Origin: Pseudanabaena cinerea FACHB-1277
GTDB taxonomy: Bacteria > Cyanobacteriota > Cyanobacteriia > Pseudanabaenales > Pseudanabaenaceae
NCBI RefSeq assembly: GCF_014696345.1
Contig: NZ_JACJPY010000024.1
Span: forward strand, 1-53,948
DNA: 53,948 nucleotides
Direction: 5' to 3'
Both the position numbers and the translations under genes were made by a program. This document shows, in pieces, positions 11,193 through 25,943 of the stretch; position 1 is the first letter of the stretch; the number at the start of each line of letters is the position of its first letter. The notes under the pieces are model-generated. The model was not told where the DNA came from and did not search any database. It saw only the letters and a program-made list of their open reading frames with translations.

Positions 11193-12239
11193 TCAAATCC
11201 TTAGTGATTGCGGATTAACACCTGCTTTAAGGGCGGCAAGCAAACCGATCGCTTCCCAATAGTTATCAGCTATTAGCCCCTTTAAACCCAACATTTCAGG
11301 GGTGACATTGAGGGTGGTTTGATTCTCCTTGACAAAAATATGATGCCCAAGGGATAGGGCATTGAGAGCCAGTAAACCTGCCCCTCCACAGGCACTGTAG
11401 GGAGTGACGATCGCGGCAATATCATCGGCGGTGATGTCATCGGGCTTAAATAAATGGCGATCGCGGATAATCTGCGGGGCGCGGCTTAAGCCCACTAAGA
11501 CGGAGGGCAGAAATGTATAGCCTAGCTCCTCCGCCGCCGCACGGGGAGACACCGTTGGATCGAGGGGTAAGGGTTGCAGCGCTGGGGCATGGGCGCAGGG
11601 AATGCCAAATTCACGGACGATCGCATGGCTAATCACGGCTTCTGCCCCTGCAAGAGCATCCACCCCCTTACCTTGGCGATAGTTTTGCAATGCCTCACGA
11701 TCGCCATCATCGGGAAATCTCGCCACAACGGCGATCGCCTGCACCTGAGCAACCTCAATCAACTTCGCCGCAGCGCGTAACAAACTATCGAGATTGGCGA
11801 TCGTTCCCCATGCCGCCCCCGAATCCCCCGAACGCAGCTCCACCCCAAGGGGCTGATCGGTAATCAATATATCCGCAATATTTAGACCTAATGTTGCTTG
11901 GGCGGCGGCGATCGCCTGACGATGGCGCAATTCCAAATCTGGCTCCATACCGCGATCGAAAATTACCCCAATACGATTAGACCGCATAGGGCGCAATCCC
12001 CAATCTCCCCTTGCCATACGATCAAGGGCATAGCCTTCGGTATATAAAATATTGGGCATAGACCAATATAAGCTTGCACCGTTTAAAACATTGGGGTGGG
12101 TAATTAGATGGTCTGCGATTGAGGCGATCGTCCTTGCCACAGGCAGCGCATCCCCCGCATAACCACCAATGGCGGCATTGATGCCTGTCGGCACTAGTAA
12201 CAAGACGTTAAAAGATAGCATAGGGACTTTAAAATTCAT
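11193..12239 (-). CDS. DUF3326 domain-containing protein
   Basis: The 348-aa protein matches the DUF3326 family, common in cyanobacteria and plant plastids. Visible features are LLLVPTGINAAIGGYAGDA near the N-terminus, VGLSRAPQII, and a late YSACGGAGLLALNALS loop. The Gly-rich loops suggest a nucleotide or cofactor site, but no function is established to my knowledge. The ATG at 12239 lies directly behind three 11-bp direct repeats. A start at Met7 (12221) would match the family N-terminus equally well. It is divergent from nadB, with a 168-base shared upstream region. Confidence 0.8.
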   Translation of the reverse strand: MNFKVPMLSFNVLLLVPTGINAAIGGYAGDALPVARTIASIADHLITHPNVLNGASLYWSMPNILYTEGYALDRMARGDWGLRPMRSNRIGVIFDRGMEPDLELRHRQAIAAAQATLGLNIADILITDQPLGVELRSGDSGAAWGTIANLDSLLRAAAKLIEVAQVQAIAVVARFPDDGDREALQNYRQGKGVDALAGAEAVISHAIVREFGIPCAHAPALQPLPLDPTVSPRAAAEELGYTFLPSVLVGLSRAPQIIRDRHLFKPDDITADDIAAIVTPYSACGGAGLLALNALSLGHHIFVKENQTTLNVTPEMLGLKGLIADNYWEAIGLLAALKAGVNPQSLRI

Positions 12240-12246
12240 GTTCGCT

Positions 12247-12279
12247 CAATTTACGCGCAATTTACGCGCAATTTACGCG
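12247..12279. repeat. Three 11-bp phased direct repeats in the DUF3326/nadB divergent region
   Basis: The unit CAATTTACGCG occurs three times in tandem (12247-12257, 12258-12268, 12269-12279) and begins 8 bases upstream of the DUF3326 start codon. A related TAATTTACGCG occurs at 39-49. The one-turn spacing would put equal faces of each copy on one side of the helix, as for a cooperative operator. Binding is inferred only. Confidence 0.8.
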
Positions 12280-12407
12280 CAAGTTATTATTTATTCTCTC
12301 GTTTGTTTGCCCACAGCGCATCCTATAAATAGATAGACTGCGGGATTTCCTACTCACATTTGTTAAAATTTATCGGCAATACTTAAAGCCTGAATACTGA
12401 CTAAAAA

Positions 12408-14045
12408 ATGCCACAACAATTTGATGCTCTGATCGTTGGCAGTGGTGCTGCTGGACTCTATACTGCCCTTTGCCTGACGGAACTAGCACCAAATTGGCGA
12501 ATTGCCCTAGTGACCAAAGATCAACTTTCCACATCTGCGAGTGATTGGGCGCAGGGAGGAATCGCTGCCGTCATTGCGGAAGAAGATACGCCCGAATATC
12601 ACGGCAAGGATACCTTGATTGCAGGGGCGGGGCTATGCGAACCGCAAGCCGTTGATATTTTGGTGCGATCAGCTCCCCGTCAAATTGCCAAACTAGTTGC
12701 TCTGGGCGTGGAATTTGATCGGACTGCCGAAGGCAAACTTGCCCTTACCCTAGAGGCTGCCCATTCCCAGAGGCGAGTGTTGCATTCCGCCGATACCACA
12801 GGACGGGCGCTAGTTTCTAAGCTAGCCGCCGCCGTTTTGCAAAGCCCACAAATTCAGGTACTGGTCAACACTCTTGTGTTGGATCTGTATCTAGAGCAAG
12901 GCAAATGTACAGGCATATTTTGTGCATCAACCCATAGCCCTGAAGTTTATTGCTTAGTTGCCCCCATAGTTGTACTTGCCACAGGCGGCGGCGCTCAAGT
13001 TTTTTCGCAAAATACAAATCCGATGTCAAGTACTGGTGATGGCGTGGCGATCGCTTGGCGAGCGGGGGCAACCATCCGCGATCTCGAATTTGTGCAGTTT
13101 CATCCCACCGCCTTAGCATTGCCCAATGCCCCCAGATTTTTGATCAGTGAAGCAGTGCGTGGCGAAGGGGCGCATTTGATCGATCATCGCGGCGATCGCT
13201 TTGCCTTTCAGTACCATCCTCAAGGGGAACTCGCCCCCAGAGATGTGGTCAGCCGTGCCATTTTCAAGCATTTACAAACCACCAAAGAGCCAACGGTCTT
13301 TCTAGACCTACAACCAATTCCCCGCGATCGCATCGCCTATCGTTTTCCCAATATCATTAAAATATGTCAAGATTGGCAGATTGATATCCTCTCCGCTCCC
13401 ATACCTGTCACCCCCGCCGCCCATTACTGCATGGGAGGCATTGTCACCGACTCCTATGGAGCCACCTCAATCGCAGGGCTATATGCAGTTGGCGAAACCG
13501 CCAGCACAGGCGTACATGGTGCAAACCGCCTAGCCAGCAACTCCCTATTAGAATGCTTTGTATTTGGCGAACGCCTAGCCCAAAAAGTCTGCCAATCCCC
13601 AATTACCAATCCCCAATCCCCAATTACGAATTACGAATTACGAATTACGAATTACCAATCCCCAATTACCAATCCCCAATTACCAATCCCCAATCCCCAA
13701 TCCCTAAAAACATTCGCTACCATAAAAGCCAACATTCAAAACCTCACTTGGCAAGCCGCAGGTATTTGTCGAACTCAGACCGAGCTAGAAAATGCCCTTA
13801 CGCAAATCAACCAGTGGCGATCGCAACTAGCGCAACTCCACCAATCATCACTCCCCGTGTCACGTATTAGTATCGAAACCCGAAACCTTGCCGACTATGC
13901 TTATCTACTAATGCGATCGGCGCTTTTCCGTACCGAAAGTCGCGGCGCTCATTATCGTCTAGACTGTCCAGAAAGAGATCGGCTATGGCAGGCACATACA
14001 ATTATTAAAAGTGAAGAAATATGTTTAATGCAACCGAACTCCTGA
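12408..14045 (+). CDS. nadB: L-aspartate oxidase, with an in-frame heptamer-repeat insertion
   Basis: The 545-aa flavoenzyme oxidises L-aspartate to iminoaspartate for NAD synthesis. The N-terminal FAD site ALIVGSGAAGLYTA, the SASDWAQGGIAAV segment, LEAAHSQRRVLHSADTTG, EFVQFHPTAL, and GVHGANRLASNSLLECFVFG are all present. The C-terminal helical domain contains RTESRGAHYRLD. Between the catalytic and C-terminal domains (about residues 396-432) lies a low-complexity insert of Pro, Asn, Ile, Thr, Gln and Ser encoded by 16 heptanucleotide units. The insert length keeps the frame, and the C-terminal domain after it looks intact. Loss or gain of one heptamer would truncate the enzyme. It overlaps the next gene by 25 bases. 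Confidence 0.94.
   Translation: MPQQFDALIVGSGAAGLYTALCLTELAPNWRIALVTKDQLSTSASDWAQGGIAAVIAEEDTPEYHGKDTLIAGAGLCEPQAVDILVRSAPRQIAKLVALGVEFDRTAEGKLALTLEAAHSQRRVLHSADTTGRALVSKLAAAVLQSPQIQVLVNTLVLDLYLEQGKCTGIFCASTHSPEVYCLVAPIVVLATGGGAQVFSQNTNPMSSTGDGVAIAWRAGATIRDLEFVQFHPTALALPNAPRFLISEAVRGEGAHLIDHRGDRFAFQYHPQGELAPRDVVSRAIFKHLQTTKEPTVFLDLQPIPRDRIAYRFPNIIKICQDWQIDILSAPIPVTPAAHYCMGGIVTDSYGATSIAGLYAVGETASTGVHGANRLASNSLLECFVFGERLAQKVCQSPITNPQSPITNYELRITNYQSPITNPQLPIPNPQSLKTFATIKANIQNLTWQAAGICRTQTELENALTQINQWRSQLAQLHQSSLPVSRISIETRNLADYAYLLMRSALFRTESRGAHYRLDCPERDRLWQAHTIIKSEEICLMQPNS
13592..13703 (+). repeat. STRR-type heptanucleotide array inside nadB
   Basis: Sixteen consecutive 7-base units of three related types occur here: CCAATCC, CCAATTA and CGAATTA. 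The order includes a run of four CGAATTA in the middle. CCAATCC is a rotation of CCCCAAT, which I recall as the STRR1 consensus described in cyanobacterial genomes. The array is translated as part of NadB. Confidence 0.92.
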
Positions 14046-14854
14046 TCAATAACTTTGTCGAACAACTCAAGATCGGCTATCGGCGCACCTATGGTGGATA
14101 TCTCCACGACTATGAAGATATCATTGCTTGGGCGGGCAATATGGCTCTGGAAAATATTGCTAATAGTGATGCGCTCTATCACAATGTTGAGCATACGATT
14201 TTGGTAACTCTAGTCGGTCAGGAGATCCTGCGCGGCAAACATATTCGCGAAGGGCGCGTCTCTGCTGATGATTGGCTGCATTACATTATTTCCCTCGTTT
14301 GTCACGATATTGGCTATGTTAAGGGCGTATGTCTGCAAGATGGCAATGGCAAATATGCCACAGGTATCGGTGATGGAATGGTAGAGCTGCCTGCGGGGGC
14401 TTCGGATGCAGGACTTACGCCTTACCATGTCGATCGCGCTAAGCTATTCGTCAATCAACGCTTTGCCAATCATTCCTTGATCAAGGCTGAAAAAATCTGC
14501 CGCAATATCGAACTTACCCGTTTCCCTGTGCCGAAGACGGGTGATCATCAAGATACGACCCACTTTGCAGGTTTGGTGCGATCGGCTGACCTGATTGGGC
14601 AACTGAGCGACCCACGCTATCTCAAAAAAATTGGCGCACTTTTCTATGAATTTGAAGAAACAGGGGTAAATGCGGCACTAGGCTATGCCCACCCTGGTGA
14701 TTTGCGCCGTAACTATCCTAAATTTTATTGGACAAGCGTATATCCCTATGTCAAGGATGCTCTGTATTACCTATCGCTGACGCAACAGGGACAAGAGATT
14801 GTCGCGCACCTCTACTCCAATGTATTTGTCATTGAGCATGAAAAAGCTGAGTGA
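14021..14854 (+). CDS. HD-domain metal-dependent phosphohydrolase
   Basis: The 277-aa protein carries an HD-type motif set: YHNVEHT (about residues 48-54) and the central HD pair in LVCHDIGYVKG (about residues 94-104), with a later SADLIGQ Asp. The family hydrolyses phosphate esters or cyclic nucleotides with two metal ions. The substrate cannot be predicted. The ATG at 14021 is inside the nadB 3' end (25-base overlap in another frame), suggesting translational coupling. No membrane segment or signal peptide is present. It resembles cyanobacterial conserved HD proteins of unknown substrate. Confidence 0.85.
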   Translation: MFNATELLINNFVEQLKIGYRRTYGGYLHDYEDIIAWAGNMALENIANSDALYHNVEHTILVTLVGQEILRGKHIREGRVSADDWLHYIISLVCHDIGYVKGVCLQDGNGKYATGIGDGMVELPAGASDAGLTPYHVDRAKLFVNQRFANHSLIKAEKICRNIELTRFPVPKTGDHQDTTHFAGLVRSADLIGQLSDPRYLKKIGALFYEFEETGVNAALGYAHPGDLRRNYPKFYWTSVYPYVKDALYYLSLTQQGQEIVAHLYSNVFVIEHEKAE

Positions 14855-15280
14855 ACAAAATCTAAGCAGCAAACCTATGATCATTACTGTGACAGTATTA
14901 CGTCCGATCAAGCCTGTTTGATGTTGTAAGAGCAATCAAAAAAAATTTGAGCATTCTGTTCCTATCTTGATTTATCTGGGAATAATAGGCTAGGCTGTTT
15001 TGTATGCTCCTTATAGATGCAGTAAGCGGACATCTTAAAGGGAGCTATGTAGATTGATCACGTCCTAGCTGGGGCTTTGAGCTTTTGTGGTTTAAGTCCA
15101 AGAATCCAAAGGTTTGATGGGTGACTGCTATCAATGCCATCCGATCGCTTTTTTTGGGGAAAAGAAGCAACGACCTGTTTGGATTTAAGTTTTCCCTATG
15201 ACTATTTTCGCACAGATGTAACTATTTCTTTCGTTTCAAGAAGGAAATAAATTTTTTTTATGAGGAGTAGCTAATAATAT
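14855..15280. other. Long leader upstream of the surface-protein cluster
   Basis: These 426 bases contain no gene. They probably hold the promoter and 5' untranslated region of the cluster starting at 15281. A GAGGAG at 15262-15267 precedes the start codon. There is a short stem GATGG/CCATC around 15116-15142. I could not match it to a known riboswitch. Confidence 0.5.
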
Positions 15281-20335: not shown

Positions 20336-20865
20336 AACCAATGACTATAAAAGGAAAAGGAAAAGGAAAAGGGAAAAAGGAAAAAGGAAATAGCTGTTGG
20401 CTGTTGGCTATTAGCTGTTGGCTGTTGGCTAATCAACCATTAAATTTCCATCTCAAATTTGGGATGTTTAAAACCATCGGTTTATTAGCGATCGCTGTGA
20501 TTTTTCTGGTAACTGATACTGGCTCAGGGGCGATCGCCAATGATTTAAGTGATTTAAGCGCTCGGACTAATCCAACCCCTGAGCAGACCCCCTCACCAAT
20601 ATCAAACCCAGAGCCAACAGCCAACAGCCAACAGCTAATAGCCAACAGCCAACAACCAACAGCCAACAGCCAACAACCAACAGCCAACAGCCAACAGCCA
20701 ACAGCCAACAGCCAACAGCCAACAGCCAATCCCCAATCCCCAATCCCCAATCCCCAATCCCCAATCCCCAATCCCCAATCCCCAATCCCCAATCCCCAAT
20801 CCCCAATCCCCAAATTTCCATCCTCTCCCCCAGCATGGACACCCTCAGCGATGTCCCTGGGGTGA
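20332..20865 (+). CDS. Signal-peptide part of the outer-membrane gene, out of frame with its body
   Basis: This 177-aa frame starts with an ATGA overlap on the previous gene, or more naturally at the internal ATG 20464. From 20464 it encodes a Sec signal peptide ([19 protein letters not shown], ending near SGAIA). Then come repeats of TANSQQP and PQSPIPN encoded by heptamer arrays, and it ends 17 codons after the repeats in a foreign-looking tail. The real body lies in another frame, open from 20583 to 25943. The two frames therefore overlap across both arrays, and a net change of +1 or -2 heptamers would join them. I read this as the 5' part of one gene in an off-frame state; an assembly error in the repeats is the main alternative. 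Confidence 0.7.
20349..20390 (+). repeat. Purine tract of GGAAAA(A) units
   Basis: The tract consists of several AAAAGG units followed by two 7-base GGAAAAA units. It lies just after the stop of the preceding gene and encodes the [13 protein letters not shown] stretch of the optional N-terminal extension. The complementary motif TTTTTCC recurs at the start of the gene at 25940. Confidence 0.75.
20395..20654. repeat. Perfect 36-bp inverted repeat flanking the signal-peptide start
   Basis: The left arm 20395-20430 (GCTGTTG-type units) is an exact reverse complement of 20619-20654. This includes the variant unit CTAATAG of the right arm, which appears as CTATTAG in the left. The 188-base spacer contains the ATG at 20464 and the whole signal-peptide coding sequence. 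Confidence 0.9.
20614..20725 (+). repeat. STRR-type heptanucleotide array CCAACAG x16
   Basis: Sixteen consecutive 7-base units occur: thirteen CCAACAG, two CCAACAA (20649, 20670) and one CTAATAG (20635). The unit is a rotation of CAACAGC, one base from CAACAGT, which I recall as the STRR3 consensus. Three units make 21 bases, so the array codes for the same peptide repeat (TANSQQP) in any frame. The variant unit has stops only in the third, unused frame. Confidence 0.95.
20731..20807 (+). repeat. STRR1-type heptanucleotide array CCCCAAT x11
   Basis: Eleven perfect CCCCAAT units are followed by a partial CCCCAA. The array adjoins the CCAACAG array directly and encodes PQSPIPN repeats in any frame. 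Unit identity is complete, which favours recent slippage. This is the most likely place for the frame switch of the outer-membrane gene. Confidence 0.96.
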
Positions 20866-23800
20866 CTGTGATCTTGCGACTGCCCCTTGGTTCTGAGTCT
20901 GAATTATCGGTAAATGGACGCAAGGTCAATAGCAATGCCATTGGACGTACTGATGCCGACAGCACCGCCAAAACCGTCACCCAAACTTGGTATGGTGTGA
21001 TTTTGGATGAAGGCGAAAATATTATTACAGCCAAAATTGTTGGCGGTGAGGCGATCGCCACAACTAGGGTAAAACTGCGGGGAGCCGCCACCCAATTACA
21101 AATTAGTACCTTAGAAACGCGCATTCCTGCCGATGGGCGCAGCACTGCCACGGTGCAGGGTTTACTGCTTGATGAAAAGGGCGATCGCTCTAACCGCAGT
21201 GCCATGATTACCCTTACCGCCAGCGATGGCGACTTTATTGGCGCGGATGCCCAAGCCGATCAACCAGGGTTTCAGGTGGAGGCTAGGGAAGGGCAGTTTT
21301 CGGCATTGCTCAAAGCCAGTCTCAATTCGGGCTATGCCAGAATTCGCGCCAACACCAGATTTAACAATCGGGAGGCGGAAGCCTTCACCCAATTACAGTT
21401 TGAAACGAATTTGCGCCCTTCCATCGTCACGGGGGTGGTGGATGTACGCATTGGCGCGAGGGGAACCGACTACTATCGCAGTTTCCGCGATTTCTTACCC
21501 AGCGATCACAATAATTCTACTAATGTCGATTTTTACGCCGCCGCCTTTGGTACTGGGCGCGTGGGGGAATGGCTAGTCACGGGGGCATTCAATACTCGCC
21601 GCACCCTCAATGAAGATTGTGAAGGTCGCAGCCGTCTATTTCGGGATATGCAGTTCTGTCAGCAAATCTATCCCACCTATGGCGACAGTTCCACTTACAC
21701 CACCGAAACCCCATCCTTAACCAGCGTCTTCCTAAGAGCCGAGCGCACTTCACCTGTTCCCAATGCTGGCACTGATTTCCTAATGTGGGGCGATTTCCGT
21801 ACCCCCGAATTTACGAGTCGATCGCAGGAATATACTGGTTTCACCCGTCAGTTAAACGGCTTGAAACTGAACTATAACATCGGCGATTTACAGGCAACAG
21901 GCTTCTATAGCAACAATACCAAGGGTTTTCAAAGGGATATTATTCCCCCCGATGGCACAAGTGGTTTCTATTTCCTATCGCGCCGATTGGTGACTCCTGG
22001 CAGTGAAAATATATTTATTGAATGGGAAGAGCTATTGCGCCCAGGCACAATCGTACGGCGGGAGCAGTTGGAGCGCAGCAAAGACTATGAAATTGATTAC
22101 GATCGCGGCTCTCTGCAATTCCGTCAACCGATTTTCCAGACAGATATTGGCAGCAACGGCGAAACCCTCGTGCGGAGGATTATCACCTCCTACGAATACG
22201 ACAATGAGAATGGCTCCAATAATAGCGTTTATGGCGGACAACTGCGTTATCACTTCCATCGCCATGCCGAAACTCCCAGTTGGCTGGGCATGAATTATTA
22301 CAAGGAGGATCAAGGTGCGCGGAATTTTCAACTCTATGGTGCAAATGCGTTGTTTTCCTTCGGGCGCAATACCTATCTCATTGGTGAATATGCGCGATCG
22401 GAAAACCAAGCTACGAATTTATTAGCCCCCGTTTCAGGTTCGGCTTTGCGCTTTGAGGGCATGGCAGAGATCGCCCAAGGCATTATTGCTAGAGGTTTCT
22501 ATCGCCAAACCGATACGGGCTTTGTAAATAATGCCACCATTAGTTTTACCCCTGGACAGACTCGCTATGGCTTGAGTGTCGATGCCAAATTGACCGATTC
22601 CACCACCCTCCGCGCCGCCTACGATCGCGAAGAAAATCGCGGTGTTGCCCCCCAGCCCTTCACCCTCAGAAGTTTTCTCGATCTCAATCCCCAATCTGCG
22701 CCTGGCACACCCGTTGACAATCGCCTCAGCACCTTTAGTTTTGGCTTGATCCAAAAGCTAGGCTTTGCCACTGCCGAACTAGATTTGTTAATGCGCGATC
22801 GCCAAGATTTCTTAAATACTTCCCTCACCAGCAACTCCACCCAATTGCGATCACGGCTGACCATGCCCTTGGCGAACAATCTCAAATTCATAGCCCTCAA
22901 CGAAACTAGCCTCTCCAATAACTCCGATTCGATCCTGCCCGATCGCACTGCCTTAGCCTTAGATTGGCAAGTGATCGAAGGCATCAGCTTTAGATTGGGG
23001 CAGCAGTGGTTTAGTAGTGGCGTGCTGGCTGGCAGTAACTTCACTACCGCCGAAGTCGTGGGGGATTACAAACTTACACCCGACACCACTGTATCAGGTC
23101 GCTATTCCATTGTCGGCGGCGCGAATACCACCACCACCCAAGGGGCGATTGGCTTAAATCATCGATGGGCGATCGCCCCAGGGTTAAGATTAAGCCTGGG
23201 TTACGAAAGGATTTTTGGCGATAATCAGGTCAACAATGCCGCCGCCCGTCAAGTGCTGCAACCCCTGACCACTGGCACAAACACCGCTAACCTAGCGTTG
23301 CAAAGTGGCGATAATTACAATATTGGACTGGAATATAGCGATAATCCAGACTTTAAAGCCAGCGCCCGCTATGAATTTCGCAACTCTAGCGCAGGTGCGA
23401 ACACGGTGCTGAGCGCCTCTGCCTTGGGCAAAATTAGCCCAGCTCTCACTGCCCTCTTCCGTTATCAGCGATCGGGCGTTGCCAATCAAACCATCAATAA
23501 TTTTGGCGACACCTCTAGCATCAGGTTGGGACTGGCATATCGCGATCCCCATAATGATTCTCTGAATGCCTTGCTACGCTACGAATATCGGCAAAACCCT
23601 AGCACCATTCCCAACAGCTTAATTAGTGGCTTTGGTTCAGGCTCGGAAGAATCAGTATTTGCCATCGAAGCCATCTATGCCCCCACTTGGCAATGGGAAT
23701 TTTATGGCAAATATGCCCTTCGCAATAGCACAGCTTACATAGCCCAAAACTTTGTGGGTACATCGGTGATCAACTTGGCACAGCTACGGGCCACCTATCG

Positions 23801-25943
23801 CATGGGCTATAACTTTGACCTCACAGGCGAAGCGCGATTTATCAATCAACCCACCGCAGGCTTTAGTGAAACAGGTTTTATGGCAGAGGTGGGTTACTAC
23901 CCCACGCCCAATTTGCGCTTTGCCTTGGGCTATAGCTCTGGGGCGGTGAATAACGATCGCGACTTTAGTGGCACGCGATCGGCGGGGGGCATCTATGCCG
24001 CCGTAACGATCAAGCTCAATGAACTGTTTGATGGCTTTGGCTTGCAAAAAATGGATACCCCGCAATACAAAGAGCCTGTAGATCCGCAAACGCCGATTGC
24101 CTTACCAAACCTTAATAAGCCTACAAATACTAATCCTAAAATTTCCCAAGAGGCTGACCCCGCCACGGAAATGATGCGGATTGCCCTCGCGCAGCCCATT
24201 CAATTCCCATCCTATCAAGCCAACCTCTCCCCCATTAGCCAAGTTGTCCTCGATAACCTTGTGCTAGTGATGCGCGAATATCCCGCCTTGAATGTCGAAG
24301 TGCAGGGACATCTGGCATCTCTCAGTCAGTCGGGAACGGTTGCCAGTACGGAAGTGCAGCGACTAGGACAGATTCGCACCTATTTATTGAACAATGGCAT
24401 CACGGCGGGGCGCGTCACCATGCGATCGCTAGGAGCGGCTGCCAACCCAGAAGCAAGCGCCGAAGTGTATCTAAACATCGGCGGCACAAAGGCAACCTTT
24501 GCTCAGATTGCCCAACGCTTAGCCCAGGGACAGGGCAACGCGGCTTTACAAAACATTCTGCCCGACATTGCCAAGCAGGAAAATAATAATCCTGTAGCAT
24601 CGGCAAATGTGCCGCAGGTCGCCGCGATTTCGCAAGTGATTGAGTTTGCGCCGATGGGTAAAATGACCGATGTGAGCAATGCCAATCTTGATGCTTTGAT
24701 CCGTCGGGTTGCCGATCGCGCTGACATTGCCATCGAAATCAAGGGCAATCTGGACGGCTCCGCCCTAGAGGTCAATCGCTTGATGGGCTTACGCAGCTAT
24801 CTGTTGCAAAAGGGCATCAGCAGCGATCGCATTTTGATTAGTAATAGCGATCGCCCCATGCAAGCCAGTCAAGTTACAGTCACCCTTGCCAACCTAGAGG
24901 GCTTACCCATCGCCAAGCTGCCCGATGATTTGATTGATAATAAGCCTGATAATAAGCCTGTTGATGTCCCAACGGTAATAACTCCCGTTGCTCAGCGCAA
25001 CCAACCCGCAAATGTTGCTAATAATGGCGATCGGGCTAATGGCAATCAGACTAATGGCGATCGGGCTAATGGCGATCGGGCTAATGGCGATCGCCTTAGC
25101 CTCTTATTTAGGGAAGAATTTAGGAAAGAATTTAACCTTAGCGTTCAACCGTCAAGCTTCACCACTAGCCAGATCAATTTTGGCGGTAATGCTATTGATA
25201 CCTTTAGCAATGCCTTTAGCGGCAACTTGAATAGCCTTGAAACCAGCAGCCTAGCCCAGAGTCGCTTCTTCCTGCTCGGTCAATTGCTAAATCTGGATAA
25301 TCGCCTTGCCCTATTGCCGAGAAACCTCAGACAAGACAATGGACAGGAAAATAGACGGGAAAATATCTTTAATAGCCCAGTCCTCTTCACCGACTTCACC
25401 GACAATACCCTCTCCCTCACCCCAGTTCCCAACCTCCTGCTCGGTCAACTACTCGATCCAGAAACATACACCCGTCAACCCCTCGCCCTCTTGCCACCCA
25501 ACCTATTGCCCAACAATCCAACACTTAGCAATTCGCAAGTTCTCAGCCTACTCCTAGAGCCAACCACTGGTTTCTCATTCCTAGTTAGTACCGCACCTCA
25601 AGAGCAAGCTCAGCCACGATTTAGCTTCCCCAATGCCAACGCCGATACCAACATTCCCCTCTGGTCTTACACCCCCACCGACCAAATGCTATCCTTACTG
25701 CTCACCGAACCGACCACCATTGTCGCCAATGCCCCCGATCTTCGCACTCAGCGCTTCATCTCCGCTTTGAACTTCTTAATGAACCGCGATCGCGACGTAT
25801 TAACTTCATGGCTCAACTCCCTCAACGGTCAACAACCTGAGATTCGCGGTGAATTGATCAGAACCGAACTGTTTGAAGAAGGACAAGAACAAGGAAAAAG
25901 TGAAAAGGAAAAAGAAAAAAGTTTTGAAGGAGGAAGATTATGA
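20835..25943 (+). CDS. Giant outer-membrane beta-barrel/OmpA-like surface protein (body frame)
   Basis: The frame from ATG 20835 gives 1702 aa without a signal peptide; its open frame reaches back to 20583 through the repeats. Residues 1-90 form a beta domain ([18 protein letters not shown]), followed by an Ig/invasin-like domain ([20 protein letters not shown], about 95-190). Residues 200-1080 look like a large outer-membrane barrel with alternating aromatic strands (for example [20 protein letters not shown]). Two OmpA-like peptidoglycan-binding domains follow (about 1112-1200 and 1268-1355; [19 protein letters not shown] and [11 protein letters not shown]). The tail has NGDRA repeats and [14 protein letters not shown] motifs. 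It is a candidate outer-membrane anchor or secretion pore for the neighbouring DUF11 proteins. Its stop overlaps the next start (ATGA). Confidence 0.8.
25023..25097 (+). repeat. Five tandem 15-bp units based on HIP1-like sequence
   Basis: Five units of AATGGCGATCGGGCT (the second and fifth are variants) encode NGDRA repeats in the tail of the 1702-aa protein. The unit contains GGCGATCG, a near-HIP1 core. Being a multiple of three, changes in copy number would keep the frame. Confidence 0.9.

Follow-up and report, generated by a model that had tools for sequence, protein, structure and literature searches.

Heptanucleotide repeat units have reportedly been published before, as the STRR of Mazel and others. 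The described systems that come closest to the repeat studied here are the G-rich heptamers GGGGA(T/C)T of Nostoc PCC 7120 and GGGAATC of Xanthomonas (Rehm 2015, PMC4692102). According to the parts of that study drawn on here, the Nostoc heptamers occur chromosome-wide, often close upstream of ORFs and with the G-rich strand being non-coding, and 68% of them are intergenic, so that about a third are intragenic. Quadruplex formation was observed in vitro for GGGGA(T/C)T/GGGAATC-type repeats, and phase variation was held unlikely for the GGGGA(T/C)T family, given the many metabolic genes (PMC4692102). In the excerpts cited here, a second heptamer, TAACTGA, is described from Beggiatoaceae and cyanobacteria, and it was foreseen that repeats might be tolerated between the subunits of modular proteins (MacGregor 2015, PMC4679880). 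The Rickettsia palindromic elements lie in frame in many unrelated metabolic genes, as stated in the portion of the text used here (Ogata 2000, as described in the review PMC10969869). A search of the open-access literature, with subscription journals mostly outside it, found neither translated heptamers acting as linkers nor repeats in nadB. Already in print are the family itself, how abundant it is, its position ahead of start codons and its partly intragenic location in Nostoc; new here are the recurrence in the nadB linker, the translation of 11 of 41 arrays, a linker difference of 63 nt (nine units) between related species and an out-of-frame array 7 kb away from the one in nadB.

The nadB array is found in Pseudanabaena cinerea FACHB-1277. 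The window, i.e. the whole stretch of 53,948 nucleotides that was analysed, is one entire contig (C97) of the draft genome, G000. ORF 12408-14045 on the + strand codes for a 545-residue L-aspartate oxidase, as seen from matches to curated models (NF005636/PRK07395, E=5e-228; TIGR00551 nadB, E=4e-182). It is the only nadB copy found in the genome: besides short hits in other heptamer arrays, the search gave one further full-length hit with 37% identity (L002), which is taken to be a flavoprotein of the SdhA/FrdA type rather than a NadB. The array, at positions 13592-13703 and with a unit number that comes from a single assembly, consists of CCAATCC (a, eight units), CCAATTA (b, four units) and CGAATTA (g, four units), all in register and in the order a b a a b g g g g a b a b a a a. 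Such a pattern is not due to chance, as 28 three-unit matches were found in the window and none in 100 shuffles of it. The array encodes residues 396-432 and is preceded by the FAD-binding/catalytic part (FAD_binding_2, residues 6-380, 12423-13547, placed by Pfam) and followed by the C-terminal helical domain (Succ_DH_flav_C, residues 441-534, 13728-14009). It occupies most of the inter-domain linker of 58 residues (388-445, 13569-13742), which was placed by alignment to solved NadB sequences; the E. coli protein, by alignment, also has a linker at the corresponding place. The sequence-only reading of this DNA had proposed 16 in-frame heptamers in nadB, translated as a linker between the catalytic and helical domains, and the exact register, the sole copy and the Pfam borders agree with this. 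Its description of the linker as Pro/Asn/Ile-rich is correct but incomplete, since the linker is also rich in Gln and Thr and, with CGAATTA encoding the R/E-containing peptide RITNYEL, has a charged centre.

All three units are free of stops in their forward frames. Four units were tried in the reverse sense, and all but the reverse of CCAATCC contain stops. If one or two units are added or lost, translation stops either directly behind the array or once 54 foreign codons have been read, and the C-terminal domain is lost in either case; it is retained only with a unit number equal to 16 modulo 3. The frame analysis supports the claim that a one-unit change would remove this domain. The domain remains under purifying selection. 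Compared with six of the 12 near congeners, it has a dN of 0.23-0.28 while synonymous sites are almost saturated, and the ratio of C-terminal to N-terminal dN is 1.8-2.2 here versus 2.3-2.4 in three pairs within the repeat-free clade. As the ratio is no higher than in the repeat-free pairs, there is no relaxation of the C-terminal domain.

To learn how the array relates to the linker, we turn to 25 congeners, in 24 of which the linker is covered by sequence. In the remaining one, Pseudanabaena CAN_BIN31 (G021, locus L033), the contig ends just before the linker, so that it is excluded from the linker comparison, and no remainder of its nadB was found on other contigs at E<=0.1. The N-terminal part of NadB is 82-84% identical to that of 12 near congeners and 69-73% identical to that of 12 distant ones. 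Between the flanking motifs, all 12 nearer species have 43 residues and the other 12 have 47-61, compared to 58 here, and no heptamers were found in any of these 24 linkers. The array contributes 112 bases, for a net gain of 45 bases over the nearer relatives. Because all 24 comparable congeners carry a non-repetitive linker at the same site, the array did not create the linker but replaced most of an existing one. The linker is hence no novelty, contrary to the sequence-only reading, which had itself named a non-repetitive linker throughout the clade as evidence against it; what is new is the repeat that took its place. With the borders used in the survey described below, the linker measures 60 residues, against a median of 50 (range 37-75, n=177, six linkers longer), and its length is thus ordinary among cyanobacterial nadB genes.

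For this survey, nadB matches at the class level were obtained in 315 genomes and 184 loci were taken, comprising those at the order level, places listed by rank and 30 hand-picked loci that were chosen in part for low or cut-short matches. The left motif was present in 180 loci and both linker borders in 177; L033, L129, L130 and L137 were left out for an absent motif, and L229, L231 and L233 for an absent right border. Segments with a run of N were excluded from the array counts, L236 being such a false hit. In the 177 genes, lag-7 arrays with a score of at least 12 were found in eight linkers (26.7 kb) versus one N-terminal part and no C-terminal part (261 kb). Linkers make up 9.3% of the bases, which gives a binomial p=5e-8 if shared ancestry is ignored. 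The sole array outside a linker, in L222, lies at the 5' end of the N-terminal part, about 19 codons before the conserved start, and is perhaps in a leader. Six linkers also pass a score of 14, compared to 0.0 in codon shuffles of the linkers. At this score, lag 7 is the commonest linker period (six genes); its multiples 14 and 21 are seen in five and four genes, and lags 8, 9, 16 and 24 in one gene each. Short periods in the N-terminal parts are mostly of lag 11 (seven genes).

The units differ between lineages. CCAATNC-type units occur in L001 and L145 (the CCAAT type also in G162, from another cyanobacterial family), GGTCAGC in L127 (the G267 linker), GGGAAAA in L126 (G042), GGGAGTG in L166 (G182) and GAGTCAG/GAGGCAG/GGCAGAG in L153, L238 and L232, from three species that are closely allied and share their genus with G267. 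With that genus counted once, the differing units indicate that the nadB linker arrays likely had at least five origins, a count made from the units. Most of the eight arrays are short, with about four to seven units, and only those of G000 and G117 are long; G117 came from the 30 hand-picked loci, some of which were chosen because their matches stopped at the linker. In the group of three related species with nadB arrays, whose N-terminal parts are 93-95% identical (ungapped identities that involve L127 are unreliable), the linkers are 162, 162 and 225 nt long. In the aligned linkers, the whole difference falls inside the array and amounts to 63 nt, i.e. nine heptamers. To stay in frame, a change could have any length divisible by three; one divisible by 21 is what unit-wise change under a frame constraint predicts. 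It is also what the predicted length steps of 21 bases call for, although it is one informative difference and no series. At two further loci, the contig ends in this region: inside a GAGGGAGGT-type 9-mer array in L231 (G325), and 16 nt after the left motif in L233 (G136). With L033, this makes three nadB contigs that stop within the linker or shortly ahead of it, and repeats at this place may break assemblies.

Heptamers of this kind are common elsewhere in the genome. A wider unit pattern gave 126 three-unit and 85 four-unit matches spread over many contigs, compared to 1 and 0 in a read-backwards control, and the 25 congeners have 0-45 four-unit matches each, with no CGAATTA among the congener matches listed. 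We examined 41 arrays, namely all of four units or more and the three-unit ones among the matches listed, and 11 of these lie within ORFs that match Pfam families and are read there in frame. Apart from NadB, the proteins are an OKR decarboxylase, an nSTAND-WD40 protein, an S15/CocE/NonD hydrolase, a CbiX-type chelatase, an N6-methylase (HsdM), an anthranilate/aminodeoxychorismate (ADC) synthase, a DASH cryptochrome, MnmE, a ModB-ModC fusion and a tRNA nucleotidyltransferase (CCA-enzyme). With the nSTAND-WD40 protein left out and the best of two Pfam stretches used for the chelatase, five of ten coding arrays, that of NadB included, lie between Pfam domains versus 0.93 expected (p=0.0006), in line with the suggestion that such arrays sit at domain borders. 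The other five, in the S15 hydrolase, CbiX, HsdM, MnmE and the CCA-enzyme, do not lie between Pfam domains and may sit in loops. Ten of the 11 coding arrays are read in the C-rich, stop-free sense, and the exception is a pure CCAATCC array, whose reverse is also stop-free. Comparison with relatives covered two genes, MnmE and the synthase, with L284 and L291 lacking the motif. In MnmE, G000 alone among 24 loci has heptamers; several Pseudanabaena loci (L257-L278) carry another low-complexity, repeat-like insert, LTPSPSPMGRGEQ...TPPLLRERGLGGEG, in the MnmE linker at the site of the G000 heptamers. In the synthase, heptamers are seen in none of 21 other aligned loci, two of which bear other long inserts there.

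Outside the 11 coding arrays, 21 of the remaining 30 end no more than 60 nt upstream of a point where an ORF of at least 120 residues could start, and in 20 of these 21, which include the envelope-type gene described below, the C-rich strand is the sense strand. Random positions gave 960 of 3960 (24%), with one strand per position, whereas the arrays were tried on both strands. The repeat thus resembles the Nostoc family in its dispersal, in its bias towards starts with the G-rich strand non-coding and in the heptamer itself, since CCAATCC, which accounts for eight of the 16 nadB units and closes the array on its 3' side with three consecutive copies, corresponds to GGGGATT on the - strand. 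It differs in that the G-tracts are broken by CCAATTA and CGAATTA, together half of the nadB units, and in its translation as inter-domain linkers of core enzymes, which the cited parts of the Nostoc study do not mention (PMC4692102). The TAACTGA repeats are likewise heptamer arrays that occur in cyanobacteria too, many of them just before start codons, but their unit is a different one and, as far as the excerpts go, has stops in all frames in the forward sense (PMC4679880). The Rickettsia elements share the presence of a dispersed repeat in frame inside metabolic genes; these are, in the portion cited, palindromes of about 150 bp, whereas the nadB array is a simple tandem repeat without inverted repeats (PMC10969869).

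An array of the same kind lies 7 kb from that of nadB and is out of frame. In the envelope-type gene at 20464-25943, about 29 heptamers of two kinds (AGCCAAC x17 and CCAATCC x12.6, + strand, 20612-20813) part a signal-peptide-like start at 20464 from a 1702-residue ORF, which has a weak OmpA match below the cut-off. Start and ORF are in different frames, and one unit more or two units fewer would join both. In the relative G008 (88% identical), a similar start and the ORF share one frame without heptamers. In 20 other relatives' loci, the frame is open upstream of the conserved part and no lag-7 array with a score of at least 12 was found; in many of them inspection by eye shows a signal-peptide-like stretch, and two loci begin at a contig end. 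The gene may be in a true off state, which makes it a candidate slippage-switched gene, or the 202-base repeat may contain an assembly error. Either way, it illustrates the loss of frame that is foreseen for nadB, in a gene where such a loss may be bearable. Further downstream, the 15-mer TAATGGCGATCGGGC is repeated 4.8 times at 25022-25093 and probably encodes the NGDRA-type repeats of the 1702-residue ORF.

To account for the position and frame of the nadB array, the replacement of the linker, its recurrence and the constraint on the C-terminal domain, all of which we observed, we propose that a dispersed heptamer of the GGGGA(T/C)T family, together with its variants, quite probably spread through this genome and took over most of the NadB linker. 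The array would encode a passive, flexible, low-complexity spacer that is kept by a selection filter favouring disordered linkers, these being the sites at which a simple repeat that spreads would be allowed to stay in coding sequence. The need to keep the downstream domain would fix the unit number at one value modulo three, and the array could have grown locally by slippage of a short seed or have been copied from elsewhere in the genome. Its persistence in NadB would be due to a linker that accepts a wide range of hydrophilic sequences and lengths, and to a strand that is free of stops in any frame, and the same filter would lead to different heptamers in the same linker of other cyanobacteria and in the linkers of other enzymes here. 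Two points do not follow easily from this proposal: a neutral spacer alone does not account for the presence in coding DNA of heptamers, whose step disrupts the frame most, and five of the tested coding arrays are not between Pfam domains. One might speculate further that cyanobacterial heptamer arrays behave as selfish simple repeats that spread and use disordered linkers as landing pads, rewriting them repeatedly and leaving three-unit frame counters that are neutral in nadB but able to switch loss-tolerant genes, such as that at 20464-25943 with its one unit short or two too long; we regard this extension as doubtful.

The proposal of a filtered spacer has a wider bearing. Discussions of simple repeats in bacterial genes usually centre on the switching of surface genes, while the repeats here are a structural part of enzymes that serve NAD, folate/tryptophan, tRNA and molybdate metabolism. 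The repeated colonisation of the NadB linker offers a natural series for studying the freedom of a linker, the rate of array change and the frame as a length-setter. Peptides such as SPITNPQ and NYELRIT in annotated cyanobacterial proteins can be derived from repeats and are then no sign of homology.

Instead of a filter acting on random events, a copying mechanism might insert heptamer arrays with a preference for certain DNA contexts. At least five lineages have arrays in the same linker, the arrays of L001, L126, L127, L153, L166 and L238 (six of eight) start 22-28 nt into it, and by a hand count CGAATTA-containing arrays are in coding DNA in six of eight cases versus five of 33 for the others (p=0.002). 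The recurrence is, however, predicted by the tolerance of the linker alone, the shared start may merely mark the end of the preceding helix, two arrays begin further in, at 52 nt in L145 and at 78 nt in L232, and the nadB array of this genome has no inverted repeats, which makes targeted dispersal improbable. Even less credence is due to a contingency switch that turns NadB on and off by slippage. The unit length is no multiple of three, so that slippage would truncate NadB, and the envelope-type array in the same window is out of frame, but nadB is a single-copy metabolic gene, it is in frame here and its array mixes three unit types. Mixed-unit arrays are expected to slip less than pure ones. 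For the family as a whole, phase variation was judged unlikely in the cited parts of the Nostoc study (Rehm 2015, PMC4692102). A function of the DNA or RNA itself, by which quadruplexes of the G-rich template strand pause transcription or aid co-translational folding, is just as hard to credit: CCAATCC is GGATTGG on the other strand, kindred repeats formed quadruplexes in vitro according to the sections cited (PMC4692102) and a pause could help at a domain border, but eight of 16 units break the G-tracts, other nadB linkers have unrelated heptamers, several of them with the G-rich strand coding, all comparable congeners manage without an array and the sense RNA is unstructured (z=0.17).

For the history of the array itself, the sequence-only reading had suggested more than one expansion. 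The four CGAATTA units are indeed adjacent (p=0.007 in shuffles), but identical units show no excess at spacings one to four, so that several expansions are weakly supported. Expansion in steps of three units was rejected, as TRF favours a period of 21 but identity at spacing three is 4 of 13, compared to 4.3 in shuffles. A palindromic element was discarded too, since no inverted repeats were found within 13560-13740, and there are no Rfam matches in 12000-15000. Between nadB and the divergent ORF 11193-12239, the 11-mer CGCGCAATTTA is repeated four times at 12243-12286.
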